From the IMG/VR virus record IMGVR_UViG_3300037225_001374, positions 1-34,594 of that record: a stretch of DNA of 34,594 nt; one strand, 5' to 3'. A model generated the notes under the pieces. It was not told where the DNA came from. It saw only the letters and a program-made list of their open reading frames with translations, and searched no databases. Numbering within the stretch: position 1 is the first letter of the stretch; each line of letters begins with the position of its first letter. A program made the position numbers and the translations under genes. Shown here in pieces: positions 14,464-34,184 of this stretch. Source of the DNA: a virus.

Positions 14464-14464
14464 T

Positions 14465-14812
14465 ATGAGTATTCAAATAATACCATTAACAAGTGATTCA
14501 ATACAGCAGTTTCAGGTTAATATCAGTGTAAACAATGTGATATTAAATCTGGCCTTGACTGTGGAGTGGAATAGAGTGGGCGGTTACTGGGTAATGTCAG
14601 TTACCAATGTTATTACCGGGATATTGCTTCTTGATTCCATACCCCTTATTTGTGGAAACTATCCTGCTGCTAACATTCTTGGTCCATACCTATATTTAAA
14701 TATAGGGGCAGCTTATATAATCAATGCAAGTGGAGTTCCGTTGGATATCCCGGGAGAGAATGATCTGGGAACAGATTTTGTACTTTTTTGGACGGATAAT
14801 CAAGCAGTATGA
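14465..14812 (+). CDS. Baseplate plug protein (Pam3 gp18-like)
   Basis: A 115-residue beta-rich protein. The pattern QFQVNISVNNVILNLALTVE, then WVMSVTNVITGILLLDSIPL, and a C-terminal DLGTDFVLFWTDN fits the small plug domain family seen in cyanophage Pam3 and related baseplates. Such proteins seal the hub channel. The ATG is one base after the preceding TGA, and the stop overlaps the hub gene (ATGA). Confidence 0.7.
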   Translation: MSIQIIPLTSDSIQQFQVNISVNNVILNLALTVEWNRVGGYWVMSVTNVITGILLLDSIPLICGNYPAANILGPYLYLNIGAAYIINASGVPLDIPGENDLGTDFVLFWTDNQAV

Positions 14813-15834: not shown

Positions 15835-16622
15835 CAGAACCAACATCTCCTTCGGTAACAAGTTTAGCCACAAGATTAGAAATTGATTGTGAGCAGTGGG
15901 GACTTGCTATTGACAAAGAGGTGCGAGGTCTACGAGTAGCCCTTCCCGGGATAATTGTTTCATTCAATCCAGTGGCGCAGACGGCTATTGTACAGTGCGC
16001 AATAAGGGAGACGCTTACTATTAATGGCATACCAACTCATGTAAATATACCGCAGTTGCTTGATGTCCCGGTTATCTTTCCCAGAGGGGGAGGATTTGTA
16101 TTGACCTTTCCTGTCTCTGAAGGAGATGAATGTCTTGTAATTTTTTCCGATCTTTGTATAGATATGTGGTGGCAAAATGGAGGAATACAAAATAGAAGAG
16201 AGGCAAGAAGACATAATTTTTCAGATGCCTTTGCAATCTTAGGCCCTTTTAGTCAGCCGAATGTTTTAAGTAGCACAGTACGATGGATGATTGGAGGGAA
16301 TTATACTGCGGGCAATATCGTCGAGTTTCAAGGCAAGAATTATTTATGTTTGAATGATGTAGATAATTCTACCGATAGTCCGGAAGAGGACACTGATAAT
16401 TTTAGTCTTGTTGAAGAGCCCTTTTCAAATACCAGTCTCCAGCTCCGAAAAATAGATGGATCAGTTATGCTGGAAATAACAGATAGTGAAATAAATCTGA
16501 CAGGCAATGTAAATACAACAGGGAATAGCAGTTCAGATTCTGGCTGGTCGGGATCTTTCCAGACTTTAACGGGAAAGATAGTTACAGTTCAAAATGGGAT
16601 TATTGTGGATGTAGGAAATTAG
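15831..16622 (+). CDS. Baseplate spike with Gp138 N-terminal domain and an inserted carbohydrate-binding-like module
   Basis: A 263-residue protein. Residues 30-140 match the Gp138 N-terminal domain: ALPGIIVSFNPVAQTAIVQC, DVPVIFPRGGGFVLTFPVSE, then GDECLVIFSDLCIDMWWQNG. Residues 151-195 (16281-16416) look like a small CBM5/12-type module: RWMIGGNYTAGNIVEFQGKN followed by YLCLNDVDNSTDSP. The end carries a beta-helical spike stub (SVMLEITDSEINLTGNVNTT) and a common C-terminal motif (GKIVTVQNGIIVDVG). The spike punctures the outer cell envelope. The module suggests contact with a surface glycan. Confidence 0.75.
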   Translation: MTEPTSPSVTSLATRLEIDCEQWGLAIDKEVRGLRVALPGIIVSFNPVAQTAIVQCAIRETLTINGIPTHVNIPQLLDVPVIFPRGGGFVLTFPVSEGDECLVIFSDLCIDMWWQNGGIQNRREARRHNFSDAFAILGPFSQPNVLSSTVRWMIGGNYTAGNIVEFQGKNYLCLNDVDNSTDSPEEDTDNFSLVEEPFSNTSLQLRKIDGSVMLEITDSEINLTGNVNTTGNSSSDSGWSGSFQTLTGKIVTVQNGIIVDVGN

Positions 16623-16631
16623 GAGAATATT

Positions 16632-16991
16632 ATGACTATGCCATCCGAAGCGGGATCTGTTAATTCACCGGAAATCAAAGCATGGCTCAAACAGATTGAA
16701 GAGATAACAAATTGTGATGAGCTGCAAAAGCTTTATGACCAGCTGAAAAAGTATGTTGAGGATCAACTTGCGGCGGTGAATGATGAAGTGGGAGTGATAG
16801 AATCCCTTCTTGTGAATCCCACGAATTTGGATAGTGCTATAAATTGGATAAAAACATTTATTAATTTAATGTCTGGAGGATACACGACAATGATTGCTCA
16901 GTTGGTTGCGTATGCTCAGACATTGGAAACAATTATCCAGAAGATAACAGAAAAAAGTTCTTCTCTGGGATGCAACAATTTTAAACTTTAA
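16632..16991 (+). CDS. Hypothetical baseplate-region helical protein
   Basis: A 119-residue protein after AGGAG. It is nearly all helical with heptad-like spacing (KAWLKQIEEITNCDELQKLY, then DQLKKYVEDQLAAVNDEV) and a second helix near the C-terminus. No family is recognised. It lies between the spike and gp25 genes, so a baseplate assembly or wedge function is likely. Two cysteines (CDELQ and GCNNF) are unremarkable. Confidence 0.65.
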   Translation: MTMPSEAGSVNSPEIKAWLKQIEEITNCDELQKLYDQLKKYVEDQLAAVNDEVGVIESLLVNPTNLDSAINWIKTFINLMSGGYTTMIAQLVAYAQTLETIIQKITEKSSSLGCNNFKL

Positions 16992-17006
16992 ATATAGGTC
17001 AGAGAT

Positions 17007-17429
17007 ATGCCAACAGTAGTTTACAGAAGATTGTCATCCGAGTATGAACCGGTGTACGGGCAAGGGCAAAACGATTTTGTGGCGGATATTTATGCAGTTG
17101 CTCAGGCTATCCAGACAAGACTTAATTTATGGTTGGGGGAATGGTGGGCAGACTTGAATGATGGTCTTCCCATGCTTCAAGGAATTCTTGGAGTCATGGG
17201 AGCAGGGCAGGGCAATTATGCAGAACTCTTAATTCAAGAAAGAATTTTGGGAACTCCATATGTTGGTAGTCTTTCTAATGTTTCATCAACATATAATCCG
17301 GCAACGAGGGCGCTTACTTTTTCTTGTCAAACCAATGTTGTATTTGGAGGGATTATACAAATAGTAGGAACATACAATCCTACTCAAAGCAATAGTCAAG
17401 CATGGACAGCAATACCTGTAGGGGGATAA
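17007..17429 (+). CDS. Baseplate wedge protein (gp25-like)
   Basis: A 140-residue protein. The pattern DFVADIYAVAQAIQTRLNLW, then GEWWADLNDGLPMLQGILGV, then LLIQERILGTPYVGSLSNVS matches gp25/lysozyme-like wedge proteins. These lack lysozyme activity and dock sheath to baseplate. It precedes the baseplate J gene by three bases, the expected order. Confidence 0.8.
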   Translation: MPTVVYRRLSSEYEPVYGQGQNDFVADIYAVAQAIQTRLNLWLGEWWADLNDGLPMLQGILGVMGAGQGNYAELLIQERILGTPYVGSLSNVSSTYNPATRALTFSCQTNVVFGGIIQIVGTYNPTQSNSQAWTAIPVGG

Positions 17430-17432
17430 ATT

Positions 17433-18626
17433 ATGTATGCACCGCCTTCAATTTCAGCAAGTGGGCTTACCATCCCGAGTTATAATGATATACTGAACAA
17501 CCTTATCTCTAATTTTCAGACCATTTATGGACAAAATGTCTATCTTGCTAATGATTCATCTGACTATCAGTTTCTATCCGTGCTTGCTCTGAAAATAAGT
17601 GATGCAGTACAAGGATTGCAATTAGAGTATAATAGTAGAAGTCCTTGGACGGCAATAGGATCGCCCCTTGATTCCATAATTAAGTTGAATGGATTAACGA
17701 GAAAATCCGCATCATACTCTACCTGTGTTGTCATTTTGACAGGGACTCCCGGGACAACAATTACAAATGGAATTGTCGGAGATATCAACGGCAATAAGTG
17801 GGATCTGGGATCGACTCCGATTCCGATAGGATCAGACGGGACAGCGACAGCGACAGCTATTTGCGAAACTATTGGAGCGATAACCGCATTGGCCGGGAAT
17901 ATTATCAATATCATGACTCCTCAATCGGGATGGACTTCTGTTACAAATATTGCGGCAGCGAGTGTAGGGCAACCTGTAGAAACAGATTCCCAGTTAAGGG
18001 CACGGCAAGCTCTAAGCACAATGATATCTTCGGAAACAATGCTTGCCGGGACGATCGCCGCCATTGCAGCCACCCCTGGAGTAACGAGATATAATGTTGT
18101 AGAAAATTATACCAATGCATACGATGGATATGGCAATCCTCCTCATTCCATTTCAGCTGTTGTTGAAGGAGGCACTCAACTTGCGGTGGCCACAGCGATC
18201 TACAATAATAGAGGGATTGGTTGTTATACAAATGGAACGACATCAGTTCCAATAACTGATCCTGATACTGGGCAGTCAATAAATATAAATTATTTTCTGC
18301 CAACATATGTCCCGATTTATGTCAGTATTGGTATTCATAAGCTTGTAGGATATACGACAGCGACAGCGACAGCAATAAAAGCGGCTATTGCCGCTTATCT
18401 TAATTCATTACAGATTGGTGAAAATCTCACTATCTCTGGATTGTACGGAGCAGCCCTTTCAGTCATGCCGAATTTGTCAATACCTATATTTTCAATTTAT
18501 TATGTCAAGGCGGGGATTGTTCCAAGTCCTCTGGGAACAACAGATATATCAATTTCTTTTAATTCTGTGACTCAAGGAATCGCGGGAACGAGCCCTTCAT
18601 ATATTACATTGCAGGATAATCTTTAA
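17433..18626 (+). CDS. Baseplate J-like protein (gpJ/gp47 family)
   Basis: A 397-residue protein. The family pattern is clear: IPSYNDILNNLISNFQTIYG, SDYQFLSVLALKISDAV, AIGSPLDSIIKLNGLTRKSA, then ETDSQLRARQALS and a C-terminal IKAAIAAYLNSLQIGENLTI. Baseplate J forms the wedge ring that couples tail-fibre binding to sheath contraction. The repeated GACAGC steps at 17840-17857 and 18356-18371 code the residues TATAT in both places and are noted only as a curiosity. It is followed by the DUF2612-type gene, as usual. Confidence 0.9.
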   Translation: MYAPPSISASGLTIPSYNDILNNLISNFQTIYGQNVYLANDSSDYQFLSVLALKISDAVQGLQLEYNSRSPWTAIGSPLDSIIKLNGLTRKSASYSTCVVILTGTPGTTITNGIVGDINGNKWDLGSTPIPIGSDGTATATAICETIGAITALAGNIINIMTPQSGWTSVTNIAAASVGQPVETDSQLRARQALSTMISSETMLAGTIAAIAATPGVTRYNVVENYTNAYDGYGNPPHSISAVVEGGTQLAVATAIYNNRGIGCYTNGTTSVPITDPDTGQSININYFLPTYVPIYVSIGIHKLVGYTTATATAIKAAIAAYLNSLQIGENLTISGLYGAALSVMPNLSIPIFSIYYVKAGIVPSPLGTTDISISFNSVTQGIAGTSPSYITLQDNL

Positions 18627-20886: not shown

Positions 20887-21702
20887 ATGCCGGCAACAAA
20901 TAATTTTTTACAATTCAATCCAGCTAAGAATAATATGTTATCTGATGCGGATTTTAATGCAGCAACACTTCGCCAACAAGGAATTCAGTCAGGAATTAGA
21001 ACAGCTGCTGCATCCAATTTGCATAACAAAATGTACTATCAAGTAACAACAATGGCGTCAGCGCTGGGAAGTATGCTTGCCAATAAGGGGTATACAGTTA
21101 GTGATGCAGATATATCCGCTTTAACGTCTCAACTTTCCGTCATCATGACTGCTGCGGACATGACTTCGTATAGTACGATTGCGTATATGCAGGCGTATGT
21201 TGCATCTCTTTTGATTCCTCCCGGGTCGATTATAATGTGGACGTTGGATTCCCCTCCAACGGGATTTCTGGAGTGTGATGGATCATCTTTATTAAGGGCG
21301 TCTTATGGGAATTTATATAGTAATATTGGGATTAGATTTGGTAATGTTGATGGAGTTCATTTCAATTTACCGGATCTAAGGGGGTATTTTATTCGCGGAT
21401 GGGATCATGGAGCTGGAAGAGACCCGGATAAAGCGGCAAGAGCAAACCGTGGTGATGGAACAGTTGGAGATTATATAGGAACACAACAGGGCGCCCAAAT
21501 GGAGAGTCATCTTCATCCAGCGACAGCCTCTTGTACAATTGATATGACTGATAATGGAGGGGTGCCAAAGAATAGAATTTTGGGCGGAGTTGTTAATAAT
21601 CAAACTCCTATTACTGTTCCGGTATCAATATCTATATTAGCGGCAGGAGGAAGTGAAGATAGGCCAATAAATATAAATTTGATGTTTATTATAAAGTATT
21701 AA
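20887..21702 (+). CDS. Tail fibre protein with collar domain
   Basis: A 271-residue protein after AAGGAGG. Residues 111-185 are a phage tail collar domain: PPGSIIMWTLDSPPTGFLEC, then LYSNIGIRFGNVDG and FNLPDLRGYFIRGWDHGAG. The end (HLHPATASCTIDM, then GGSEDRPININLMFIIKY) is the usual C-terminal needle-like tip. The first 110 residues are helical and may bind the baseplate. It is likely to be a receptor-binding or short fibre protein, followed by its chaperone. Confidence 0.85.
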   Translation: MPATNNFLQFNPAKNNMLSDADFNAATLRQQGIQSGIRTAAASNLHNKMYYQVTTMASALGSMLANKGYTVSDADISALTSQLSVIMTAADMTSYSTIAYMQAYVASLLIPPGSIIMWTLDSPPTGFLECDGSSLLRASYGNLYSNIGIRFGNVDGVHFNLPDLRGYFIRGWDHGAGRDPDKAARANRGDGTVGDYIGTQQGAQMESHLHPATASCTIDMTDNGGVPKNRILGGVVNNQTPITVPVSISILAAGGSEDRPININLMFIIKY

Positions 21703-21717: not shown

Positions 21718-22173
21718 ATGAAGATCTATAATTATGATAAGGAGAGTGGAGAGTTTTTATCAGAGGGCAAAGCCAGAATTGATCCAATGACCTCGGAGCA
21801 GACAGAAGTCTTGACATGGCTCCTTCCTGCCAATGCAACATTTATTGAGCCATCCGTAATTGGAGAAGGATTTATCAACCTTTTCGATAACGAGAAGCAG
21901 GAATGGAGAGCTGTTGCCGATAATCGGGGGAACATCTATCGCAAGTCCGACGTTTTTGAGGCCTTTCATAACAAGTTTGGAGAGGATATCCCAGAAGGAT
22001 ATACAAGGTTAGTCCCTCCAGAATTCCCTATCTGGAATGAAGCAGAAGGAAAATGGGATGTCGACCTTGTGAGAAAAGAGGCTGTCGAAAAAGAAGAAAT
22101 GATCGGGCAAGAGATGTATCGTCTCGTTAGAGATATGGCTGAAGCTAATTTGAAAGCACAAGGAAAATTATGA
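21718..22173 (+). CDS. Tail fibre assembly chaperone-like protein
   Basis: A 151-residue protein. The start KIYNYDKESGEFLSEGKARI, then PMTSEQTEVLTWLLPANATF and NLFDNEKQEWRAVADNRGN, resembles the small fibre chaperones and caps that follow collar-fibre genes. The C-terminus is helical. It is likely needed for folding or attaching the fibre and is the last structural-module gene before the enzyme island. Its stop lies three bases before the next ATG. Confidence 0.65.
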   Translation: MKIYNYDKESGEFLSEGKARIDPMTSEQTEVLTWLLPANATFIEPSVIGEGFINLFDNEKQEWRAVADNRGNIYRKSDVFEAFHNKFGEDIPEGYTRLVPPEFPIWNEAEGKWDVDLVRKEAVEKEEMIGQEMYRLVRDMAEANLKAQGKL

Positions 22174-22176
22174 GTC

Positions 22177-24231
22177 ATGGCAAAGAGACTCATCGTTGTC
22201 GGGATTGCGCCTTGCCTGCAGGACGATCTTGCCCGGATTCAGAATCATGAGCTTTACGACTTCATGGCCATTGGAGTTGATGCTGTTGATAAGGTCTCCA
22301 AAGTAAATTATGTTGCGACTTATCACGATGAAGACATCCCGGCGATCAGAATCAAATTGGCGGGGAATAACAATTACAAAATTATTTGTTATAAACAACC
22401 AGAAGTAGGAGGAGTAGATTTTGTTGAACCGACTCTCTTTGGAAGCGATCATCACCAGACAACAGGATCCAGTTCGTTGCTTGGAGTATGTTATGCAATC
22501 GGGGCTGGATACCAGAAGATCGTACTTGCAGGATGTCCTTTAGAGGGGAAAACATCTGCAGGCAATGAAGCAGGACAGTTTCAAAGAGGGTGGCAAATTC
22601 ATAAAGATAAACTTGGAGACAAAGTCCGATCGATGAGTGGTTGGACAAGAAATTTTCTTGGAGAACCTACAAAGGAGTGGCTCATGATAGACAATAGGTT
22701 TAGAATTCCCCTTCAGAAAGTTGTTTTGGAAAGGATTGGAGAAGATCATCTTTCTCAGTTGGTTGAAACAACTTCCCTCTCCAGAACAAAAATTCTACTC
22801 TCAGCACCTATTCAGAAGGATGCTCAGATCCAAAACTGGGGAGCGCCTTGTTTGGGGATCATACGGATTGCAGAGTATGTCCGAAAGCACTTCGGGAATG
22901 ATGTTGAAATCCTTTTCTACGATCCTCAGATTGACAATTTCGATCCCATTGAAAAATGGAAGGATGAAAAGATTGAAGTCCTCGGGCTGAGTCTTCTTCA
23001 TTACACCTTATTCGATAGCCTTGTCTTCATCAATAATTTTAAGAAGGCACATCCGGAATCTTTGATAGTCGTTGGAGGCAATGAAGCCGGCGCGAACTAT
23101 CAGGATATCTTTGACAAAGCTCCTGTTGATATTTCGGTGACTGCTGAAGGCGAAGAGACATTTGCAAAGATCATCGAGTGGAAAATGGGAGTCAGACCCC
23201 TCGAAGAGATTGAAGGGATAATATATCGCAAGCATGCAAAGCCGATCACGGAAGATTCACTATGGTCTTATTGGAGAGGTGTTGATTTTTCCCTATACAG
23301 ATATCAAAATTATTGGGACACGATCGCCGGGCTTTACAAGGATCCCGACTACGAGAAAATAAATTATGTCAGATTGATGACCGTCTCTCATTGTCAAAGG
23401 ACCTGTACATTCTGCTCTCTCGCATCTGTCAGAAATATTGCCTGCGGGAAGAGAGTAGAACCTGCAGCACTCACTGGAGAACAGATCATGTCTTTGGTTG
23501 AAAAGGTACATAAGCAGCTCCCCAAAGTGAGAACAATTTACTTCTGTACCGATGATATTTTCTATCCCTATCGACAGCACTTCCTTGATTTCATCAATCT
23601 CTATAAAGAGAGTGGCTTCAATTATCGGATCTTGATCCAGACATCGACATTCAGTTTGCAGAAAGAGGACTTTCCATTGCTCAAGAGCATCGGCTGCCAG
23701 CATATCACTCTGGGCTTTGAAAATTGTAGTGAGGCTGTAAGGAAGTCTCTGAGGAAACCACAAAAGCAATCCAAAATGGAAGAGATCATTGCTCTGGGCA
23801 AGAAGCATGGGATCGCAATCTATGTTCTCATTATCCTCATGACTCCCGAGGCCAAGATGAATGATCTCGTAGAGAATTATGAGACATTGAGCAAATGGGT
23901 TTTGGAAGATGGAGTCCAAATCAGTGTCGAGCCTGTTATGTATCCTTATCGAGGGACAGAAGTCTTCGATCAAGATGCCGCTTTCCATTACGAGTGGGAG
24001 AAAAGAGATGGTGTAGAATATCGAGACGCAAAATGGATCTGGCCCAATGATCCCCGTGTCAGGGCGTTATGTGAAGAGCTGATCGAAAAGAGGGAAACTT
24101 TTGTTGCAAATTATTTCAAAGACCTGCCTCATCAACATCACTTTAAGGGAGCCACCGGAGTTGCCCTCATCTCTTTATTGGGAGAGTTGTTGAGAAAGAA
24201 AGTTGTCGGATATAAATATAAAGGATTGTAG
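22177..24231 (+). CDS. Two-part protein: Rossmann-like domain plus B12-binding-like/radical SAM domain
   Basis: A 684-residue protein. Residues 1-175 form a Rossmann-like domain (LIVVGIAPCLQDDL, then TTGSSSLLGVCYAIGAGYQK and IVLAGCPLEG) resembling DUF115-like and sugar-related domains in phages. Residues 203-340 look like the B12-binding half of class B radical SAM enzymes (TKILLSAPIQKDA, then LIVVGGNEAGANY), but no DxHxxG motif is visible, so cobalamin binding is uncertain. Residues 400-640 are a radical SAM barrel with C406, C410, C413 (SHCQRTCTFC) for the 4Fe-4S cluster. Substrate unknown; methylation or rearrangement of a sugar fits the neighbours. First gene of the island. Confidence 0.8.
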   Translation: MAKRLIVVGIAPCLQDDLARIQNHELYDFMAIGVDAVDKVSKVNYVATYHDEDIPAIRIKLAGNNNYKIICYKQPEVGGVDFVEPTLFGSDHHQTTGSSSLLGVCYAIGAGYQKIVLAGCPLEGKTSAGNEAGQFQRGWQIHKDKLGDKVRSMSGWTRNFLGEPTKEWLMIDNRFRIPLQKVVLERIGEDHLSQLVETTSLSRTKILLSAPIQKDAQIQNWGAPCLGIIRIAEYVRKHFGNDVEILFYDPQIDNFDPIEKWKDEKIEVLGLSLLHYTLFDSLVFINNFKKAHPESLIVVGGNEAGANYQDIFDKAPVDISVTAEGEETFAKIIEWKMGVRPLEEIEGIIYRKHAKPITEDSLWSYWRGVDFSLYRYQNYWDTIAGLYKDPDYEKINYVRLMTVSHCQRTCTFCSLASVRNIACGKRVEPAALTGEQIMSLVEKVHKQLPKVRTIYFCTDDIFYPYRQHFLDFINLYKESGFNYRILIQTSTFSLQKEDFPLLKSIGCQHITLGFENCSEAVRKSLRKPQKQSKMEEIIALGKKHGIAIYVLIILMTPEAKMNDLVENYETLSKWVLEDGVQISVEPVMYPYRGTEVFDQDAAFHYEWEKRDGVEYRDAKWIWPNDPRVRALCEELIEKRETFVANYFKDLPHQHHFKGATGVALISLLGELLRKKVVGYKYKGL

Positions 24232-24246
24232 TGGGAGAAAGTAAAA

Positions 24247-24969
24247 ATGGGACTTAACGCACTTTTATTATCAGCTGGCCCGGGAGAGAGATTGAGGCCC
24301 TTGACTCTCTTTTTGCCTAAATGTTTATTGCCTGCAACATCTGAAGGGACGATGTTAAAATATTGGATCAAGCTCTTGACAGAGGCGGGTGTTGATAAAA
24401 TATTTGTAAATGTCTACTGGCTTAAAGACAAAATAATGAAATACATCGATGAGATGGAGAATTGCTATTTTGACAAAGTGGTTATCTATGAGGAGTTTCG
24501 TCTTGAACCGACGGGAGAAGTTATTGATACTCTTGCCGGGGAACTTGGAAACAATTTTCTGATTATCAATTCTGATACATATATTAATGAAAATCAAGTC
24601 CGGTATTTTTTGGCAAATGCAAATGTGTCTGAAGGATATCCGATTTGTCTTGGTGTTTCCAAACATGAAGATGTTTCGGGGAAGAGCCTCGTCGAGGTCG
24701 AGGAAGGGATTGTCAAATCGTTCATAGAAAAGCCCGGGCCGCAGATCGGATTTTCATATGCTGGGATCCTTCTTATGGATATAATGGCAACTCAGAAGAG
24801 GGTATGCAGTCTCTTTTGTGAGAAAGAATTAACAAGACATATCATTCCAATTTTCAATGGCCAGATGACTGCAATCGATGTAGGAGAGGTTATCGATATC
24901 GGAAGCAGTGTTGAAGAATATTTATATGCAAGTCAAGAGATTTTAAGGAGGCAATTGAATCATGGCTAA
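24247..24969 (+). CDS. hddC: Sugar-1-phosphate nucleotidyltransferase (HddC/ManC-like)
   Basis: A 240-residue protein. The nucleotidyltransferase signature LLLSAGPGERLRPLT with PKCLLP starts at residue 6, and a metal-binding NSD lies at 108-110. Further family features are an E-x-x-GEVIDTLAGEL segment (PTGEVIDTLAGEL) and VVIYEEFRLEP. The reaction is NTP plus sugar 1-phosphate to NDP-sugar plus pyrophosphate. Length and neighbours (HddA- and GmhA-like genes) suggest D-glycero-alpha-D-manno-heptose-1-phosphate guanylyltransferase, but mannose or glucose 1-phosphate transferases share these motifs. The gene symbol is therefore tentative. It overlaps the next gene by eight bases. Confidence 0.75.
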   Translation: MGLNALLLSAGPGERLRPLTLFLPKCLLPATSEGTMLKYWIKLLTEAGVDKIFVNVYWLKDKIMKYIDEMENCYFDKVVIYEEFRLEPTGEVIDTLAGELGNNFLIINSDTYINENQVRYFLANANVSEGYPICLGVSKHEDVSGKSLVEVEEGIVKSFIEKPGPQIGFSYAGILLMDIMATQKRVCSLFCEKELTRHIIPIFNGQMTAIDVGEVIDIGSSVEEYLYASQEILRRQLNHG

Positions 24970-27900
24970 ACCAAGGATAATGTTTCTCTGGCCGGGAGTA
25001 TATTTGGGATGGGAATCCTTAGGACAAGGATTCGAAAAGTCAAGTATGAATCATGGATTAGCGAGCATCTCCGCTGTTCTCAAACAGGCAGGTTATGACT
25101 GCTTCATGTTTGATCTAAGAGCTTTGAAAAATTGGCAGGACTATGAAGAGACGATGAAGAGAATGGTTTTCGATATCTGTTTCATCGGATTTCTCTCTGT
25201 CGATAATTTCATTGCCGATCAGGCAATCAGGATTATTAAGACAATCTTCCCGGGAAAACCGGTGGTGGCAGGAGGAGTCCATATCACTTTCAATCAGCTC
25301 AAAAGTTTTTCGGTTGCCGACACCGTCGTTTGGGGAGAGGGGGATGAAGTCTGTCTCGATCTCGTTCATAAATTTGAGAGAGGGGAATCTTTTCCTGCAC
25401 ATATTATTGCCCCCGTGATTAAGAATCTTGATACACTGCCTTTTGTAGATAGAGGGCTTTTTCATGGCGGGAGGTATGAGCCTGACAATCCCTTCCTCCC
25501 TCTATTGGAGAAGCCCTTCTTCACCATCAATTTTTCGAGAGGCTGTAATTTCTCATGCAAGTTTTGTCTTGAATCGAAGAATCTTCTCTGGAAAGGGCAG
25601 AGAGTCAGGAGCCCAGAACATTGTGTGGAAGAGCTTGTCCAGATGAGAAAGGGTGGAGCAATAGGCCCGGCGAGCCTTATGATTCATGATGACAATTTTC
25701 CTCCGAAGCGATCCTGGATAGAAGGATTCATCGAGGCATGGACAAGATATCTCCCGAGGATCCCATGGTGGTGTCAGATGCGAGCCGATTTTATTTGTAA
25801 GAATGAGGATCTGATTTCTGAGCTTTCAGATTGTGGTATGACATGGTGCAGTCTGGGGATAGAGGGATCCCAGAGGATGCTTGACTTCTATAATAAGAAA
25901 CTGACCGTCGAGCAAGTCATCAAGGCCGGGGAGATCCTTCATAAAAATAATATCAACATCTTCGGAAATTATATTATGGGATCCCCGACAGAGACACATC
26001 AGGACATCGATGATCTGGGGAGAGTCCTCGATCAGATCAGGCCAGTTCATCATTCATCGAGCACCTATACAGCTTATCCGGGATCGATCCTTTTTGACTA
26101 TTGCAGAGATAACAATTTGTTTGTAGGAGATGGCAAATCGGATGCTGATTATTATTCCCTTGTCCGGTATCCTTATGAAAGGAAGATCGTAGGCATCGAT
26201 TATGATTATGTCAGGAGTAAGCAATCTGAATTCGCGAGCCGATATGCCGGCGTTCTCAGGAAGTACGTTGCAAAGCCGATGTCAAGAAAATTGCCTCCTC
26301 CCAAACCGATTGCGCTGGCTGCAGCGCCAATCCTTCTTCCTTTTGCAAAGGTGACGATTGTATTGTTGAGTCATAATCGACCGACATTTCTTTCAGAGGC
26401 GATCAATTCAATCATGGCTCAGAATATGGGAGACTGGGAGCTTATCATAATTGATGATTGCTCTACCGATCCCGGTGTACTCCCCGTTTTAGAACAGGCA
26501 TCCAAAGATAAAAGGATCAAGGTCTTCCGGGCAAACTATGATGTTGATAATATCAGTCTCTTGTGGAATCGAGCTTTGGATATTGCGACAGGTGAATATA
26601 TTGCCCTTCTCGATGACGATAATAAAAAGAAACCCACTTTCTGTTCTGAAATGTCGGGATTTCTCGATGCACATCCCGAGTTTGATGCAGTTGCTTGTTT
26701 CAATGAATTGTATCAATGGGAAGGCTCGCGAAGATTGGATCGTGAACACATTTTTGCAGAACCGGCGGAAGCTACAAAAGAGAATATCCTCGAAGGGAAT
26801 AAGATCGACTCCGGGTGCATGATGTTTCGTCGAAGTGTCATTGAGAAGATAGGATGGTTCGACGAGAGATTGACAACTGAAGACGATTGGGATTATGTTA
26901 TTCGGATCATGCACGAGACAAAAGGATTTGGGATAATCCCGAAACCTCTGGCCGAATATCGGTGGCATGGAGACAATAGAATATATCGATCTCAGGAACT
27001 TGGCATCGCAACAACTCATGCTTTTATAACACAAGAAAAGAGGCACAAGTATGGGAAGCCTCTTTCTCTTCTTTTGTTTCATCCCGATCAGGGAGGGATC
27101 ACCCTTTCCCAGAATAATGTTTTGAGAGGAGTCACAAATGCTCTCAAGAGCATCCCATGGATAACTTTTGAATCCTGCCCGGCTGGAGCTATTACTCCTA
27201 ATAATGGATTTGATGTAGTGATAGCTTTCATGCCTTTTGCCCTATCGAATGAGCAAATGATAATCGCCAGGAGCAAGGGATATAAACTGATTACCTATCA
27301 GATCGAAGATCCTCCAGCTCTGGGGATCAATCTTGAAAGGGTAAGGCAGGTGGATTATGTTTTTACAAATGATATTTCGACAGTCTCTGATTATGAGAAG
27401 ATTGTCGGGAATGGATTTGTCGGATATTGTCCCTCGATCTCTTTTGATGATATTGGCCTTCCTACTCGGCCTGATGCTCCTAAAAGATATGAAGTGATTT
27501 TTTACGGGTATGCCTATGATAGCCGTGTCAAATTTGTCAAAGAGTTGATCTCAAAAACTCGGCCCGGTCTCGTAACCGTTGTGGGAGGAGGATGGGCAGA
27601 CAAAGGGATTTCAGCTCCTCAGATTTCCGAGTTGTCCGAAATGGATTCACTGCAGGTGATGGAGGAAGCAAAGATTGTTGTTTTATATAATCGTCTGCAT
27701 ACTGATTGTGGAGGCAAGGATTCTTCTTCAAGGCATGAAAGTGTTGTGAGGGGATATTTTGAATGTGCATCCGGATCTTTGATAATGCTCGATAGTGGGA
27801 GAGGACATCACAATTTAGACGGAGTTGTTGCATTCTATTCTAATGTTGACGATCTTGTAAAGAAGATCAAGTTTTATCTTTCCAATGATGAGGAAAGGCA

Positions 27901-28015
27901 GGCCATAGGGAGGCGAGCCAGACAGAGAGCCTTCAAAGATTTCACATATAAGAAGCGTATCACCGATTTGGTAAATGCGGTTAGGAGCATGCGCTATTCT
28001 TATGAAGTAAAATAA
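24962..28015 (+). CDS. Radical SAM - GT2 - second glycosyltransferase fusion protein
   Basis: A 1017-residue protein in one frame. Residues 1-160 are a B12-binding-like domain (MNHGLASISAVLKQAGYDC, then VVAGGVHITF) with no visible DxHxxG. Residues 185-400 are a radical SAM barrel with C195, C199, C202 (SRGCNFSCKFC) and an LGIEGSQRMLDFYNKKLT segment. Residues 463-690 are a GT2 domain (VTIVLLSHNRPTFLSEAINS; acidic D551-D553; ED at 640-641). Residues 700-1010 resemble CgeB/GT1-type enzymes (VIFYGYAYDSRVKFVKEL, then RHESVVRGYFECASGSLIML). A radical-modified sugar or peptide may be handed to the transferase domains. The linker (KLPPPKPIALAAAP) supports a genuine fusion. Confidence 0.85.
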   Translation: MAKPRIMFLWPGVYLGWESLGQGFEKSSMNHGLASISAVLKQAGYDCFMFDLRALKNWQDYEETMKRMVFDICFIGFLSVDNFIADQAIRIIKTIFPGKPVVAGGVHITFNQLKSFSVADTVVWGEGDEVCLDLVHKFERGESFPAHIIAPVIKNLDTLPFVDRGLFHGGRYEPDNPFLPLLEKPFFTINFSRGCNFSCKFCLESKNLLWKGQRVRSPEHCVEELVQMRKGGAIGPASLMIHDDNFPPKRSWIEGFIEAWTRYLPRIPWWCQMRADFICKNEDLISELSDCGMTWCSLGIEGSQRMLDFYNKKLTVEQVIKAGEILHKNNINIFGNYIMGSPTETHQDIDDLGRVLDQIRPVHHSSSTYTAYPGSILFDYCRDNNLFVGDGKSDADYYSLVRYPYERKIVGIDYDYVRSKQSEFASRYAGVLRKYVAKPMSRKLPPPKPIALAAAPILLPFAKVTIVLLSHNRPTFLSEAINSIMAQNMGDWELIIIDDCSTDPGVLPVLEQASKDKRIKVFRANYDVDNISLLWNRALDIATGEYIALLDDDNKKKPTFCSEMSGFLDAHPEFDAVACFNELYQWEGSRRLDREHIFAEPAEATKENILEGNKIDSGCMMFRRSVIEKIGWFDERLTTEDDWDYVIRIMHETKGFGIIPKPLAEYRWHGDNRIYRSQELGIATTHAFITQEKRHKYGKPLSLLLFHPDQGGITLSQNNVLRGVTNALKSIPWITFESCPAGAITPNNGFDVVIAFMPFALSNEQMIIARSKGYKLITYQIEDPPALGINLERVRQVDYVFTNDISTVSDYEKIVGNGFVGYCPSISFDDIGLPTRPDAPKRYEVIFYGYAYDSRVKFVKELISKTRPGLVTVVGGGWADKGISAPQISELSEMDSLQVMEEAKIVVLYNRLHTDCGGKDSSSRHESVVRGYFECASGSLIMLDSGRGHHNLDGVVAFYSNVDDLVKKIKFYLSNDEERQAIGRRARQRAFKDFTYKKRITDLVNAVRSMRYSYEVK

Positions 28016-28029
28016 AGGAGGAGTGGGTT

Positions 28030-28770
28030 ATGGATTTTTTATTTGATAAGGACATTTTTTTATTGACCAACAATCCTGTGGCATTGGGATCGAGGGATCA
28101 CACCGGCGGATTTGCTCATGTAGAGTCAGGAGGGAGTGGTATTGATAACTTCACCGATCTTACAGAATTTGCTGAGGATCTGAAAGCATATTTCCCGGGA
28201 AAGAAAACCTTGCTCGACTTTGGAACTGCGACCGGAACAGTTCCATTAACCGGGAGAAAGGCCGGGCTGCTTTCCGTTGGCATTGAAGGAAGCAGCGGAT
28301 TCCCCGCAAAGAATCAAGGGGCATGGAAAGAGATGCCGGATATAGTAAGGACTTGTGATGCAGGGAAACCTTGGAGGATTGTTGACAAGGCAGGCAGGAA
28401 TGTCATCTTTGATTTCATCATCAGTTGGGGAACAGTAGAGCACATTCCTGTTCAAGATTTCCAGACATGCATGGAGAATATTCTTGCACACATAGATGAG
28501 AATTCTATCATCATGCTGAATATAGACCTTGGCTATAATGAAACAGACGGCTTCCACATGCTCTGGGAAACCTTCGACTGGAAGGGACAACGGGCGCCGG
28601 CGATGATCTTCTTGGAAGAGGCTCTTTCGAAGTACTTCATAATCGACAAAGAGCTTGAGAAGATTAACTGGAGATACAGTCGTCCAACGAAGGCTGAGGT
28701 TGATGCGGTCAGAGATCAGGGATGGACTGCAAAAGAGGGGCGCAGTTATTGGTGGTTGAGAAAGCGATAA
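28030..28770 (+). CDS. SAM-dependent methyltransferase
   Basis: A 246-residue protein after AAAGGAGGAG. It has a class I methyltransferase motif I-like loop at 61-71 (LLDFGTATGTV), an acidic residue E86 at the end of strand 2 (SVGIEGSSG), and a motif IV region DFIISWGTVEHIP. The C-terminal half is helical and ends RSYWWLRKR. It is probably a cytosolic O- or C-methyltransferase. Its place inside the island suggests a sugar or glycan acceptor, but the acceptor cannot be read from sequence. Confidence 0.8.
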   Translation: MDFLFDKDIFLLTNNPVALGSRDHTGGFAHVESGGSGIDNFTDLTEFAEDLKAYFPGKKTLLDFGTATGTVPLTGRKAGLLSVGIEGSSGFPAKNQGAWKEMPDIVRTCDAGKPWRIVDKAGRNVIFDFIISWGTVEHIPVQDFQTCMENILAHIDENSIIMLNIDLGYNETDGFHMLWETFDWKGQRAPAMIFLEEALSKYFIIDKELEKINWRYSRPTKAEVDAVRDQGWTAKEGRSYWWLRKR

Positions 28771-28792
28771 GGAAGCCGAAAGGAGAGAAATT

Positions 28793-29419
28793 ATGTCAGA
28801 TAGTGAATACACATTTTATAATGATTTACCTAAGGTAATAAAGGATGTTAGTTCATTCCCTACGCCTTATAGTATAGAAATAGCGTCAGGTAATTTCCAC
28901 GTTCAGCAACCCACAGATAAGTGGATTCATACTGACTGTTGTTTGCATAATAGTCAATTGGAAGAAAACCATTTGGAGATGCTCTGTTATTCCTGGCATA
29001 TTCCCTTGGGAGCTGGAACGTGCAAGGAATTAATAGCAAGGGGTTTTTGGGAGCATCTTTCTTACCATGAAGTGGGTATTACTTTAAAGGAGTGGGCTAG
29101 AGTTCTCATTCCTGGAGGAGTTGCGATATTTAATTACCCACCCGTCGACCATGCCATTCATATGCTTACTCAGAAACATGCTGATCTGCAGTGGTTTTTA
29201 CGAGCTATATATGGATGGCAGTTTCAAGAACGAGATATTCATAGAAGTGGATGGACAGAGGAATGGTTCAGGAAGTATATGTCTGATCGGGCTGATTTTG
29301 TCATTGAAGAAGTCTTCTGGGGAGACTCCCGGGCTGAGGACGGGATCCCCAGACGGGCCGACTACGATCCATGGGTGACTGTCGGTGCGCATCAATGGGT
29401 GATCTTGAGGAGATTGTAA
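28793..29419 (+). CDS. Divergent SAM-methyltransferase-like protein
   Basis: A 208-residue protein after AAAGGAGAG. It resembles the short COG4627-type predicted methyltransferases: SIEIASGNFHVQQPTDKWIH replaces the normal glycine-rich motif I, and FWEHLSYHEVGITLKEWARV followed by LIPGGVAIFNYP is the typical later segment (EHL...RVLxPGG). Motif I keeps only one glycine, so SAM binding is uncertain. It may be a paralogue with altered activity. Codons in the first third look more AT-rich than in neighbours. The stop overlaps the start of the kinase gene by one base. Confidence 0.65.
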   Translation: MSDSEYTFYNDLPKVIKDVSSFPTPYSIEIASGNFHVQQPTDKWIHTDCCLHNSQLEENHLEMLCYSWHIPLGAGTCKELIARGFWEHLSYHEVGITLKEWARVLIPGGVAIFNYPPVDHAIHMLTQKHADLQWFLRAIYGWQFQERDIHRSGWTEEWFRKYMSDRADFVIEEVFWGDSRAEDGIPRRADYDPWVTVGAHQWVILRRL

Positions 29420-30405
29420 TGATAATCGCTCGCACTCCATTCAGAATTAGTTTTTGCGGAGGAGGGACAGATTTCCCTGATTACTATCTTGCCAATCAAG
29501 GCAGGGTGATATCAACTTCAATCGACAAATATATTTACATCACCGTTAATCATAAATTCGATGGGAAGATCCATCTACGCTATGCAGATATTGAGTGTGT
29601 AGAGAATATCGATGATCTCAAACATAATATTGCCCGGGAAGCTCTCAAGGAAGCGGATATCAACGGAGGAGTTGAGATCGTAATCATCTCTGATATTCCG
29701 ACGCAGGGGTCCGGACTGGGATCGAGTAGCAGTCTGGCCGTCGGTTTGATTAATGCACTTCATGCTTATAAGAAATATGGATTGTCCCGTGAGGAATTGG
29801 CAAGGAGAGCTTGTGAACTTGAAATAGAAAAACTAAAGTCTCCTATTGGTAAGCAGGATCAGTATGCTGCTGCAATGGGTGACTTAAATCAAATCACTTT
29901 TAAAAAGGATGGATCAATAGAAATCGCCAAAGTGGCAGGGATGCATCCTAATCGCAAAAGATTGCAGTGGCTCAAAAATTCAACAATGCTATTTTATTTG
30001 AATGGCAGATCGAGCAATGCAATTTTGTCTGAACATAAGAAGAGTATTGAAAATAAGATTACGGTTCTCGATCAGCAAAAAGCATTGACCGTTGCTTTTC
30101 TTGAATGGATTTATGGAAGACATGACAATGCTTTTCTGGGAAGATTGATTACAGAGAGTTGGGGGTGGAAGAAGGCAATGACTCCCGAGGCCAGCTCCGG
30201 ATGGATCGATCATCTCATAGACTCTGTTTTAAGCTCCGGCGCTCTGGGCGCAAAACTTTGTGGAGCGGGAGGCGGTGGATTCTTGATGGTGATCTGCGAT
30301 CAGGATTATAAACAAAAGATTAGAAAAGTTCTCTCTGGATTTTTGGAACTTAAATTTGATTTTGACGAGAAGGGAACGAGGATAATTTATGACGATCAAG
30401 TATAA
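29419..30405 (+). CDS. hddA: GHMP kinase, D-glycero-D-manno-heptose-7-phosphate kinase-like
   Basis: A 328-residue protein. ATG 29419 is chosen because GAGGAGA lies just upstream and the protein then begins with the family's IIARTPFRISFCGGGTDFPD. Motif 2 is GSGLGSSSSLAVGLINALHA (98-117), SPIGKQDQYAAAMGDLN carries the likely catalytic Asp, and motif 3 is KLCGAGGGGFLMV near the C-terminus. The closest family known to me is HddA, which makes D-glycero-alpha-D-manno-heptose 1,7-bisphosphate from the 7-phosphate with ATP. It lies next to the GmhA-like isomerase gene, as in bacterial hddA-gmhA-hddC clusters. Fucokinase or galactokinase-like specificity cannot be excluded. Confidence 0.85.
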   Translation: MIIARTPFRISFCGGGTDFPDYYLANQGRVISTSIDKYIYITVNHKFDGKIHLRYADIECVENIDDLKHNIAREALKEADINGGVEIVIISDIPTQGSGLGSSSSLAVGLINALHAYKKYGLSREELARRACELEIEKLKSPIGKQDQYAAAMGDLNQITFKKDGSIEIAKVAGMHPNRKRLQWLKNSTMLFYLNGRSSNAILSEHKKSIENKITVLDQQKALTVAFLEWIYGRHDNAFLGRLITESWGWKKAMTPEASSGWIDHLIDSVLSSGALGAKLCGAGGGGFLMVICDQDYKQKIRKVLSGFLELKFDFDEKGTRIIYDDQV

Positions 30406-30856
30406 AGAAGTAGTCGATGCTCTACAATCGGCGAGACATATATATCTCATCGGAGACGGGGGATCTGCCGCCCTTGCAGATCATTTTGCCTGTGATCTGC
30501 TAAAGAATTGCTTGTTGCCGGCAATCTCCCTATGTTCTAATGCTGCAATCTTAACCGCAATCGCGAATGACTATTCATCTGATGAAATTTTCTCAAGACA
30601 ACTCAATGTCCTTTGGCAGGAAGGGGATCTCCTCATGATCTTTTCTACATCTGGGAATTCCCGCAATCTCATCAAGGCTGCTCCGATAGCTGAGAAGTCA
30701 ATAATCACGGTTGTCGGAGGTGGAATATTATCTATAGGTGAATGGCCCGGGAAGATATGTTGTTTCATCAAGGGAGAGGATCAAATGTCCATTGAGGACG
30801 ACATGCTTGTCTTTTGTCATGAAGTTGCAAGGAGGTTGATGTGCAAGAAAAAATAA
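30389..30856 (+). CDS. gmhA: SIS-domain isomerase, GmhA-like (sedoheptulose-7-phosphate isomerase)
   Basis: A 155-residue protein overlapping the kinase gene by 17 bases. It has GmhA motifs: IYLIGDGGSAALADHFACDL near residue 20, AIANDYSSDEIFSRQL, and the phosphate-binding FSTSGNSRNL. The enzyme converts sedoheptulose 7-phosphate to heptose 7-phosphate. It is about 40 residues shorter than the usual GmhA (about 190), lacking N-terminal helices. Aligned by eye, the zinc ligands read H32, D36, E136, H144 rather than the usual His, Glu, Gln, His, so two are conservatively altered. The function is likely but not certain. Confidence 0.7.
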   Translation: MTIKYKEVVDALQSARHIYLIGDGGSAALADHFACDLLKNCLLPAISLCSNAAILTAIANDYSSDEIFSRQLNVLWQEGDLLMIFSTSGNSRNLIKAAPIAEKSIITVVGGGILSIGEWPGKICCFIKGEDQMSIEDDMLVFCHEVARRLMCKKK

Positions 30857-31587
30857 CTCTCATCACCCCCACTGGCGACAGACCTCTTGCATTTGATCTT
30901 TCTGTCAAGTGGATCACTCAGCAAACACAACGAATCGATCAATGGGTGATTGTCGATGACGGAAAAAATCCAATGCCAAACGGGAATCTGCGAGGTTTCG
31001 ATTATGTCCGGAGAGATCCACTGCCTGATGATCCTCTTCATACTCTGGGCAGGAATATTCAAGCTGCCCTCCCATTTGTGACAGGGACAAAGATTCTCAT
31101 GATTGAGGACGATGAATATTATGCCCCGACATATATTGAAGAAATGTCCCGGAGGCTCGATCAATATCAGATCGTCGGCATCGGCCGTGCACGATATTAC
31201 AATCTTCAATATCAGAAATGGTACAGGGATGAAAATTTCTGGCATGCCTCTCTTGCCCAGACAGGATTCAGGGTTGAGTTTTTTGATAGAATTAAACATC
31301 TCTTTGATGACGAAATCTACATTGATGTCCGGATATGGGAAACAGAGAATCTCTCTCGATTCTCTTTTGTAGGGAAGGAAAGAATTACGGATAGAGGAAA
31401 TGGAATTGTTTTTGATGATGGCGATGATAATCCCCTTTACTGCGGAATCAAGGGTCTTCCAGGCCGCAAGGGCATGGGAATTGGACATACCGATTTTGCA
31501 GGTTTGCATCCTGATTCCGGAAATCAAATGTTGAAAAAGTGGATCCCTGAGGACTACAAAGAATATCTCAAGTTGATCGGAGGATGA
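30841..31587 (+). CDS. GT-A-fold glycosyltransferase-like protein
   Basis: A 248-residue protein started by GTG, with AAGGAGG five bases before it and a 16-base overlap with the isomerase gene. The N-terminus is a GT2-type nucleotide fold (ITLITPTGDRPLAFDLSVKW, then WVIVDDGKNP), and ILMIEDDEYY supplies the DxD-like metal site. The C-terminus (GLPGRKGMGIGHTDFAGL, then PDYKEYLKL-like end) is less typical. It is likely to transfer the island's sugar product to an acceptor. It is the last enzyme of the island. Confidence 0.75.
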   Translation: MQEKITLITPTGDRPLAFDLSVKWITQQTQRIDQWVIVDDGKNPMPNGNLRGFDYVRRDPLPDDPLHTLGRNIQAALPFVTGTKILMIEDDEYYAPTYIEEMSRRLDQYQIVGIGRARYYNLQYQKWYRDENFWHASLAQTGFRVEFFDRIKHLFDDEIYIDVRIWETENLSRFSFVGKERITDRGNGIVFDDGDDNPLYCGIKGLPGRKGMGIGHTDFAGLHPDSGNQMLKKWIPEDYKEYLKLIGG

Positions 31588-31588: not shown

Positions 31589-32062
31589 ATGGATACGGGA
31601 GCTGGAATTGCATGGGGAAGCGGTATAGTAGGAGGAGTCTCTGGGGTTGTTGCTATTTTTTATAAGGTCGCTGATATGTGGTATTTAAAAAGAAATAATG
31701 GGAATGGCAAGACAAAGTATAATCATGCCTTATGTGAACAGAGTCATGACATAATTGATGGTCGTCTTGAAACCATTGAAGAGTGCAAAGAAAATATGAA
31801 GAAAGACGCAGAACAAGAAAGAAAAAATCTCGCTGAAAAAGTAGAACAAGAAAGAAAAAATCTCGCTGAAAAAGTAGAACAAGAAAGAAAAGAACTTGAT
31901 ATTAAATCAGATCACATGAGAGAAATAATTTTTAAAGAAGTAAGAGAAAATAGGACTTCTATTGAAGGGAAGTTGGACTCTACACGATCTGAACTGGTTG
32001 GTCTTTTGACAGAGATTGGAAGAAAGATAGACAGTCATATTCAATTTCATGCCGAAAAATAA
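31589..32062 (+). CDS. Membrane-anchored coiled-coil protein
   Basis: A 157-residue protein starting one base after the upstream TGA. Residues 5-32 are a Gly-rich hydrophobic segment (GAGIAWGSGIVGGVSGVVAI, then FYKVADMWYL) that may span the membrane. Residues 65-155 form a long charged coiled coil with an 11-residue unit (EQERKNLAEKV) repeated exactly. The layout is like XhlA- or holin-associated phage proteins, but nothing specific is conserved, so lysis involvement is only a guess. It is the last + strand gene, and a terminator follows. Confidence 0.65.
   Translation: MDTGAGIAWGSGIVGGVSGVVAIFYKVADMWYLKRNNGNGKTKYNHALCEQSHDIIDGRLETIEECKENMKKDAEQERKNLAEKVEQERKNLAEKVEQERKELDIKSDHMREIIFKEVRENRTSIEGKLDSTRSELVGLLTEIGRKIDSHIQFHAEK
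31811..31891 (+). repeat. 33-bp tandem repeat inside coding sequence
   Basis: Two identical 33-base units (31811-31843 and 31844-31876) are followed by 15 bases of a third. Each full unit encodes EQERKNLAEKV, a hendecad (11-residue) coiled-coil step. Perfect identity at the DNA level points to recent slippage or unequal exchange, and the length can change without breaking the frame. Confidence 0.9.
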
Positions 32063-32086: not shown

Positions 32087-32090
32087 CTTG

Positions 32091-32139
32091 AGAGGACTGA
32101 AGGTTTGTCTCCTTTACTTCAGTCCTCTCTTTTTATTTT
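32091..32139 (+). terminator. Rho-independent terminator of the rightward late operon
   Basis: A perfect 12-bp stem AGAGGACTGAAG (32091-32102) with CTTCAGTCCTCT (32117-32128) and a 14-base loop is followed by CTTTTTATTTT. It closes the + strand operon just after the coiled-coil gene. The T-tract form (TTTTTATTTT) is the same as in the hairpin at 1103-1167. Confidence 0.9.
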
Positions 32140-33001: not shown

Positions 33002-33568
33002 TCACCGACGAATTAAATAGTCTATTATTATTTTGAATACCCTCTTGCTCTCGTGATATCGGTATTGATTTAGAGGGGATTCTTTTATTCTTGATTGCCG
33101 GGAATTGTTGCTTGGAGTCAAGCTCATCACCGCATCATCGAAGACAATATGGTATTCCGGATCGAGGATTGATCTGAAGTTTTTCAGCTCTTCAAGACCC
33201 TCGTATATTTTTTCGAGAGGATCCTGTTTGACAATATCGAGGGACTCTTCTTTTTCGTCTTTCTGGGAATTCAAATCGTTTAAGAGATAAAATCTTGTGT
33301 AGTTGTAGAAGTGATTTGGAACAGAAATGGGTTTATCAGGTTTATAATATAATAAACCATGTTCAAAACAATCCCAGCTCAGAGATAATATTTCTGGTTT
33401 GCTTCTATATGCTCCCCAGTCTGATAGGATAGAGGAAATCCACTTTAGCATGAAGGGTTGGATTTGGACAAATATTTTGTTGCGGATATTGACCTTTCTT
33501 CTCCCGTCAGGACATTTTCTATATTCTCCTATCAGCTTTCGGCATAGATCACTCTGTTCTTTCTTCAT
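33002..33568 (-). CDS. Putative sigma-factor-like or DNA-binding phage protein
   Basis: A 188-residue basic protein. The region VNIRNKIFVQIQPFMLKWIS, then SLSWDCFEHGLLYYKPDKPI and HFYNYTRFYLLNDL has the spacing and aromatic pattern of sigma-70 region 2 (a repeated I-x-x-[FY] helix followed by W/F and YxxYTRFYL). The C-terminal part (SNNSRQSRIKESPLNQYRYH, then ESKRVFKIIIDYLIRR) could be a small HTH. I consider this suggestive only; other phage helical proteins could look similar. It may be the switch for late transcription. Confidence 0.4.
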   Translation of the reverse strand: MKKEQSDLCRKLIGEYRKCPDGRRKVNIRNKIFVQIQPFMLKWISSILSDWGAYRSKPEILSLSWDCFEHGLLYYKPDKPISVPNHFYNYTRFYLLNDLNSQKDEKEESLDIVKQDPLEKIYEGLEELKNFRSILDPEYHIVFDDAVMSLTPSNNSRQSRIKESPLNQYRYHESKRVFKIIIDYLIRR

Positions 33569-33602: not shown

Positions 33603-34184
33603 TTATGCGTGCAACTTCCCGGCTCCCGGGAATGCCGAAACAACAGCGATCTTGCCTTCCTCTTTCCACATAAATGAAATGGCTGCTTGTGCGATGCCCG
33701 GGAGGGTTTCCAGAGCCTTTTCCAATTCAGGAGTAAGGTCTATCTCTGCGTATTCGATCTCTTCATTGAAATCTTCAAAAGCTTTTTTTGCTTCTTTTTG
33801 ATACTCTGCATTCTTTTCAGTGGGGATCCCTTTTGAAGCTCCTTCGGGAGGACTCTGTTCATGCTTGGTAAAGACCGCCAAAATTTCACTTTTCTTTACT
33901 CCTATATCATCTTGATATGATGCAAGCAGCTTTGTGATATCTGCTTTGAATGCCGAGTAATTTTCATAATCGACGAATGGCTCTTTGTTAAGATCAATGG
34001 CATGTTTTTCAAAGATGTCTTTCTGGAGTTTCTCCCATTTCTTTACGAGAGAAACAAGGAATTTTCTGTTCCGGTCAAGCCAGTAATTTGTTTTCTTCCA
34101 TGGAAGCCCTCCCTGCTGCATCAGTGAATTGAGAGCTTGGACTGCGCTGAGGATCTCATTTAGTTCCAGTGTTTTCTTTTCCAT
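33603..34184 (-). CDS. Hypothetical protein, possibly DUF1617-like
   Basis: A 193-residue protein preceded by AGAAGGAGAAATAAA. The N-terminal half (LELNEILSAVQALNSLMQQG, then LPWKKTNYWLDRNRKFLVSL) resembles DUF1617-type phage proteins (inner helix-helix with a 'KxxYWLxRN' segment). The middle is acidic and helical, and the C-terminus (AVVSAFPGAGKLHA) contains a GxGK-like string that I do not take for a P-loop because it sits at the extreme end. Function unknown. Confidence 0.6.
   Translation of the reverse strand: MEKKTLELNEILSAVQALNSLMQQGGLPWKKTNYWLDRNRKFLVSLVKKWEKLQKDIFEKHAIDLNKEPFVDYENYSAFKADITKLLASYQDDIGVKKSEILAVFTKHEQSPPEGASKGIPTEKNAEYQKEAKKAFEDFNEEIEYAEIDLTPELEKALETLPGIAQAAISFMWKEEGKIAVVSAFPGAGKLHA

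Follow-up and report, generated by a model that had tools for sequence, protein, structure and literature searches.

A putative exchangeable glycan cassette behind the tail fibre genes of a phage

What does a set of genes for making and transferring sugars do inside the late tail operon of a phage? The question is raised by the IMG/VR record IMGVR_UViG_3300037225_001374, whose whole stretch of 34,594 bases is analysed here and called the window. At positions 22177-31587 it holds an island of eight co-directional open reading frames (ORFs), genes A to H (Table 1), lying in the late tail operon between the fibre chaperone and the terminator. The original prediction, made from the letters alone, had seen here nine genes for a self-contained pathway that makes a modified heptose or related sugar and attaches it to virion proteins or to the host surface; its coordinates, content and placement in a late region directly after the tail fibre chaperone are correct, while eight ORFs fill the stretch and not nine. 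Our reading, to which we give a probability of roughly 0.5, is that the island, used late in infection, is an exchangeable glycan cassette whose target is more likely the virion than the host surface.

On the whole, the enzymes proposed for the island, namely two radical S-adenosylmethionine (SAM) proteins, a nucleotidyltransferase, a kinase, an isomerase, two methyltransferase-like proteins and several glycosyltransferases, are confirmed by Pfam, NCBIfam and PDB searches, and none of the domains aligns better to an unrelated family. The Pfam and NCBIfam matches are Radical_SAM with B12-binding twice, NTP_transferase, GHMP kinase, SIS/GmhA, Methyltransf_23, a weak Methyltransf_11, Glycos_transf_2 and Glyco_trans_1_2; chance is excluded by the E-values alone, except for gene E (E 0.004) and gene H (E 2e-4 in Pfam). 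The radical SAM modules have CxxxCxxC motifs at residue 406 of gene A and residue 195 of gene C, each together with a B12-binding domain, and reach no NCBIfam equivalog cut-off. The nucleotidyltransferase, gene B, keeps GxGxRLRPLT...PK and weakly matches (E 9e-4) the PDB entry 6jq8, a protein of the 6-deoxy-D-mannoheptose pathway. The kinase, gene F, keeps GSGLGSS and KQDQ, with HddA as the best NCBIfam model and heptose kinases as the closest solved structures; its first in-frame ATG is at 29371, and 29419 is the likelier start, because a GAGGAG directly precedes that ATG and the L002 and L004 homologues start at the same residue (L numbers denote individual loci). The isomerase, gene G, shares the His and the C-terminal ED...H with its relatives in an alignment of motifs and lacks the N-terminal helix; compared with GmhA structures, an Asp stands at the position of the catalytic Glu, likewise in L002, L004 and the Caulobacter phage Cr30. 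Gene E belongs to a recurring protein type (28793-29419; L086, L093, L137) that covers no more than the latter half of a class I methyltransferase profile; this half alone is also matched by the L086 and L137 homologues, and in L093 it sits behind a further methyltransferase domain.

The island begins and ends with two families, which we call the first and the last marker. The first marker, residues 1-175 of gene A, has no significant Pfam match, and elsewhere its family stands alone, with ~170 residues, in many phages. Alignment-based scans of viral contigs find this family in at least 124 contigs and that of gene H, the last marker, in at least 131. A model of the first domain (15 sequences, predicted local distance difference test (pLDDT) 89) matches best the CstII sialyltransferases and the Maf flagellin glycosyltransferase, with a template modelling (TM) score of about 0.6, E 5e-5 and 11-16% identity; compared with CstII (GT42) and Maf, the marker is much smaller and has its own SMSGWT...LGEPTKEW motif, and we do not claim membership in those families for it. 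For the last gene, the model (49 sequences, pLDDT 92) shows a GT-A fold, with SpsA closest (E 8e-9, TM about 0.6) and other GT2 enzymes following, and its acidic metal-binding EDD motif (E89-D90-D91) is invariant across the 49 sequences. Judging from these models, the last marker is probably a glycosyltransferase, and the first probably too, with less certainty. Neither gene A nor gene H has a PHROG match at E up to 0.01. In 50,697 phage records, a search with the markers gives either nothing or a single weak match, to Paracoccus phage Pkon1. Since sequenced phage isolates almost lack the markers, such a system would have been largely out of sight.

Based on the two markers, the relatives of the island can be compared, in a sample partly chosen by marker presence that shows the frame of such cassettes and not their frequency. 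In phages whose baseplate, tail and fibre genes have homologues in the window, the first domain lies directly after the fibre or within a few small genes of it (L025, L117, L118, L133, L167, L194, L195, L201, L202, L203), or after fibre and chaperone in the same order as in the window (L204, L205). The last gene, which in many cases forms a fusion with a further GT2 domain, stands at or close to the cassette end in L025, L117, L118, L167 and L194, and near the cassette start in L133. Behind the cassette, the unassigned minus-strand genes at 33002-33568 and 33603-34184 of the window recur: L118 and L133 have both and L194 has one, so that conserved flanks are present on either side of the cassette. 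The cargo between the markers consists of a methyltransferase and a weakly MptE-like protein in L025; a hexapeptide transferase, a methylmalonyl-CoA mutase-like protein, an aminotransferase fragment, GT11 and GT2 in L117; one protein without family assignment in L118; several methyltransferases in L167; a methyltransferase and other glycosyltransferase-like proteins in L133; and WbqC, GNAT, methyltransferases and GT2 in L194. Radical SAM, kinase or isomerase matches are absent from the tail-related L025, L117, L118, L133 and L167. On a tree of the baseplate protein, read without support values, the window groups with L025, L118, L167 and the truncated L022, with L133 elsewhere. The whole island set occurs in no other phage found, and the cargo is exchanged in every relative seen; of the conserved island that the original prediction had asked for across related phages, what is kept is a glycan cassette in the slot, not the full set or its order. 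The same slot with different sugar genes suggests that phages swap sugar chemistry much like tail fibres. A near-identity DNA search of the island against the 50,697 phage records gives nothing, and neither do viral-contig scans with the whole genes A and C as single proteins; these two proteins are fusions of an unusual kind, and the scans worked once their domains were used separately. As a separate observation, L117 4417-6030 has a strong match to the catalytic part of methylmalonyl-CoA mutase (PF01642, E 1e-162), with no B12-binding domain matched, and its place in a glycan cassette, beside the hexapeptide transferase and the aminotransferase fragment, makes it very unusual phage cargo.

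A cargo entirely different among relatives would also be expected if mostly neutral sugar genes were captured at a recombination hotspot behind the fibre, the whole pathway being idle in the window's phage; a short isomerase without its N-terminal helix, a gene E that matches half a methyltransferase profile, and the missing GmhB treated below would suit this as well. We hold it to be improbable, since all eight frames are intact, tightly packed and overlapping, the catalytic motifs are kept, and the markers are kept in many phages.

Which sugar the exchangeable cassette would make is indicated by its kinase, isomerase and nucleotidyltransferase, from which a heptose is likely. Outside the tail-related group, L163 (65.8 kb, with a weak terminase match and tail genes unrelated to those of the window) carries the last marker with a fuller heptose set: after the marker come an epimerase/dehydratase, a GFO/IDH oxidoreductase, an HddA-like kinase (37% identity), a nucleotidyltransferase, a SIS protein (29%) and a fusion. 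This fusion, at L163 14878-16137, joins a GmhB-type HAD phosphatase to a transaldolase, and the latter could supply sedoheptulose-7-phosphate. Such a combination of genes beside the last marker strengthens the heptose reading. In addition, the Caulobacter phage Cr30 and the contigs L002-L004 encode the kinase next to or almost next to the isomerase, along with an epimerase (L003 by tblastn), and B12-radical SAM genes stand beside the last marker in L112, L116, L137, L147-L150 and L154. Both halves of the cargo thus recur beside the last marker, and within the sample seen only the window has them together. GenBank MT835644 (L005), deposited as phage and at first taken for a phage relative with a full heptose set, looks like a piece of a bacterial capsule-type cluster of high GC (guanine plus cytosine) content that includes chain-length genes besides GmhB, GmhA and HddA; it is left out of the phage evidence. 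A second record of the window's phage, IMGVR_UViG_3300036886_000363 (83,436 bases), has 99.97% identity across window positions 1-18198 and extends the phage by ~65 kb upstream. A GmhB-like HAD phosphatase (PF13242, TIGR01656) is found neither in the window nor in this overlapping 83 kb contig, while both models match L163; the search covers the known sequence, and such a gene could still lie in a part of the genome outside it. The original proposal of a pathway for a modified heptose or related sugar is strengthened by the fitting enzymes and by L163; that this pathway is self-contained is not supported, since neither the window nor the further 65 kb of the phage shows such a phosphatase.

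What the analysis shows is which genes are present, where they stand in the operon, and a kept frame around a changing cargo; the substrates, the order of reactions and the acceptor that we infer would be as follows. The GmhA-like isomerase would form a heptose (or related) 7-phosphate, the HddA-like kinase would add the anomeric phosphate, a host phosphatase would take off the 7-phosphate, and the nucleotidyltransferase would activate the sugar-1-phosphate; the B12-radical SAM proteins and the classical methyltransferases would then modify the sugar, and the glycosyltransferases would transfer it. Both markers would probably serve an attachment step common to all such cassettes, the cargo between them setting which sugar is attached, and the acceptor would most likely be a virion protein, for example the adjacent tail fibre. 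A virion protein is favoured by the co-expression with tail genes, the linkage to the fibre, the lack of membrane transport and polymerase genes, the absence of a PF00589 integrase from both records, and the Maf-like fold of the first marker.

The same fibre linkage would fit receptor co-adaptation, if the cassette served to remodel a host surface glycan late in infection, freeing progeny from debris and excluding competing phages, with the receptor-binding protein and the receptor-modifying enzymes changing jointly. Authors working on pelagimyophages have read similar fibre-adjacent cassettes of glycosyltransferases and radical SAM genes as O-chain modification (PMC7029224), and capsule and O-antigen typically contain methyl, acyl and heptose sugars; L194 and L117 have WbqC and acyltransferases among their cargo. 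We regard the host surface as a serious possibility that stays short of probable. Against it, none of the eight island proteins is polytopic, with one hydrophobic segment each in A, C and G, only 2 of 43 proteins in six other cassettes have any hydrophobic segment, and the cassettes examined show no flippase, polymerase, lipid-carrier enzyme or polytopic Gtr/Wzx/Wzy-type protein; expression with the tail genes would also be late for excluding other phages.

Several points weigh against the virion-decorating heptose cassette that we prefer. The kinase reaches 123 of the 600 bits of the NCBIfam HddA equivalog cut-off and the isomerase 79 of the 209 bits of that for GmhA; the resemblance of the first marker to CstII and Maf is remote (TM about 0.6); with the GmhB-like phosphatase missing, the pathway would need that of the host; and glycosyltransferases of the lipopolysaccharide-core type also lack membrane spans, so that a host-surface acceptor fits soluble enzymes. 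A bolder extension, that the two marker families define an unnamed, widespread phage system glycosylating virion tail proteins, whose cargo, in the window a heptose modified by B12-radical SAM enzymes, is swapped in the manner of tail-fibre tips to change adsorption or hide the virion, is offered tentatively and is, as a whole, rather unlikely.

Some T4-like phages carry sugar on their DNA, as glucosyl- or arabinosyl-hydroxymethylcytosine. The contig G001 of the window's phage (loci L014-L017) encodes FolE, QueD-like PTPS, QueE and QueC, that is, a 7-deazaguanine pathway, which is used by other phages for DNA modification and could suggest that the sugar goes onto phage DNA. However, the cassette lies in a late structural operon far from the deazaguanine genes, its fold matches are surface and protein glycosyltransferases, its markers follow tail fibres, and a TGT/DpdA-type gene is not found with PF01702; we therefore judge DNA glycosylation highly unlikely.

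Comparison with known systems shows which parts of the cassette are familiar. The bacterial GDP-heptose pathway of capsule and S-layer (GmhA, HddA, GmhB, HddC) has a kinase, an isomerase and a nucleotidyltransferase that those of the window resemble in kind, and differs in that no GmhB is found in the phage, kinase and isomerase score below the equivalog cut-offs, and GTP specificity of the nucleotidyltransferase is unreadable from sequence. Cr30 and the freshwater contigs L002-L004 resemble the window in having kinase and isomerase close together, with a kinase identity of 35-37%; unlike in the window, their heptose genes lie by nucleotide-metabolism genes and not behind the fibre, and neither a radical SAM gene nor the last marker stands next to them. 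What links the island to Gtr-type O-antigen conversion (GtrA-GtrB-Gtr) is a weak match (E 5e-7) between the gene C GT2 domain and a GtrB-like PHROG, while no GtrA flippase and no polytopic glucosyltransferase is among its eight genes. In mycobacteriophages, phage-encoded glycosyltransferases have been proposed to decorate structural proteins of the virion; the window's phage likewise encodes glycosyltransferases, and a virion glycan is what we hypothesise for it. We know of no heptose-type or radical SAM chemistry in the mycobacteriophage case. Virion glycosylation in mycobacteriophages is mentioned in PMC11256854. The Campylobacter phages CP220 and CPt10 have several radical SAM genes in an exchangeable module in which their authors describe no sugar genes (PMC2853527), whereas the modules of the window have B12-binding domains and are fused to glycosyltransferase-type domains. 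The gene gmhA is listed among well-characterised auxiliary metabolic genes of marine phages (PMC9238414).

A close precedent is given by the hypervariable regions beside the tail-fibre genes of pelagimyophages and cyanomyophages, which hold glycosyltransferases and sugar enzymes, some genomes differing by radical SAM cassettes (PMC7029224). Compared by description, both they and the window's cassette lie beside tail-fibre genes and have a glycosyltransferase content exchanged between related phages; those regions belong to T4-like phages, have a mean length of 44.6 kb and are described without a marker pair, while the operon of the window belongs to a non-T4-like myovirus, is compact at 9.4 kb, and combines fixed markers with B12-radical SAM fusions and a kinase/isomerase pair of heptose type. 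Variable glycan regions that lie next to fibre genes and hold radical SAM cassettes are thus already known from that work. We found no description in the open-access literature of the marker families, of their fixed position in the window's myovirus group, or of B12-radical SAM-glycosyltransferase-type fusions. If the proposal is true, many uncultivated phages would own an exchangeable sugar chemistry linked to host-recognition genes, and the marker pair would be a simple handle for finding cassettes, for testing virion glycosylation and for reaching new sugar-active B12-radical SAM enzymes.

The layout of the operon is given in Table 1. Intergenic gaps in the island range from -17 to +22 bases, with no large gap that could hold a separate promoter, and the next gene, 31589-32062, starts one base past the island. 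A strong terminator is found only after that gene, its stem at 32090-32129 being followed by TTTTTATTTT. A scan for promoter patterns is uninformative (46 sites against 28 in shuffles). GC and GC3 (GC at third codon positions) of the island genes are inside the range of the structural genes, so nothing marks the island as very recent. The protein of 31589-32062 has no informative family match in Pfam and PHROG searches, and a lysis role is possible.

Table 1. Positions of the island genes and their operon neighbours in the window
Feature	Position	Strand	Evidence or remark
Tail fibre (collar-domain) protein	20887..21702	+	constant left flank of the cassettes; in relatives, a homologue immediately precedes the first marker
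Tail-fibre assembly chaperone	21718..22173	+	phrog_105, E 1e-20; order fibre-chaperone-marker also in L204, L205
Gene A: domain of CstII/Maf-like predicted fold (first marker, residues 1-175) + B12-binding radical SAM	22177..24231	+	Pfam B12-binding, Radical_SAM
Gene B: sugar-1-phosphate nucleotidyltransferase	24247..24969	+	NTP_transferase E 4e-13
Gene C: B12-binding radical SAM + GT2 + GT-B-like (Glyco_trans_1_2) fusion, 1017 aa	24962..28015	+	Pfam
Gene D: SAM-dependent methyltransferase	28030..28770	+	Methyltransf_23, Pfam E 2e-7
Gene E: methyltransferase-like	28793..29419	+	Methyltransf_11 positions 44-95, E 0.004, below cut-off
Gene F: HddA-like GHMP sugar kinase	29419..30405	+	NCBIfam HddA E 1e-35; PDB 3k85, 4n3o
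Gene G: short GmhA-like SIS isomerase, 155 aa	30389..30856	+	SIS_2 E 9e-14; GmhA structures E 5e-20
Gene H: putative terminal GT-A glycosyltransferase (last marker)	30841..31587	+	at least 131 viral contigs; fold model
Small protein, N-terminal hydrophobic segment + coiled coil	31589..32062	+	ORF, hydropathy; final operon gene
Intrinsic terminator closing the operon	32090..32139	+	13-bp stem + T tract, fold -31 kcal/mol

Taken together, the two records point to a non-T4-like myovirus of roughly 100 kb that is probably virulent, with a terminase, a Mu F-like protein, a DUF3383-related sheath protein and baseplate genes, and with DNA polymerase-, DnaX- and RecA-type proteins in addition to the FolE, QueD-like, QueE and QueC proteins named above. 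As to its host, a first genome scan found no relative, and a second found distant prophages only, in Bacillota and Acidobacteriota, with 44-62% identity in the baseplate J-like protein; the prophages of named genomes with a related baseplate gene in these two groups (L070-L085) have no match to the island proteins. Positions 10392-10841 and 10879-11400 of the window, immediately behind the sheath gene, encode tandem proteins with a mutual identity of 56%, probably duplicated tail-tube proteins. Finally, within the head genes, the minus strand at 2320-2994 has a Cys-rich ORF of 224 aa with a C-terminus that is HNH-like by eye, which might be a free-standing endonuclease.

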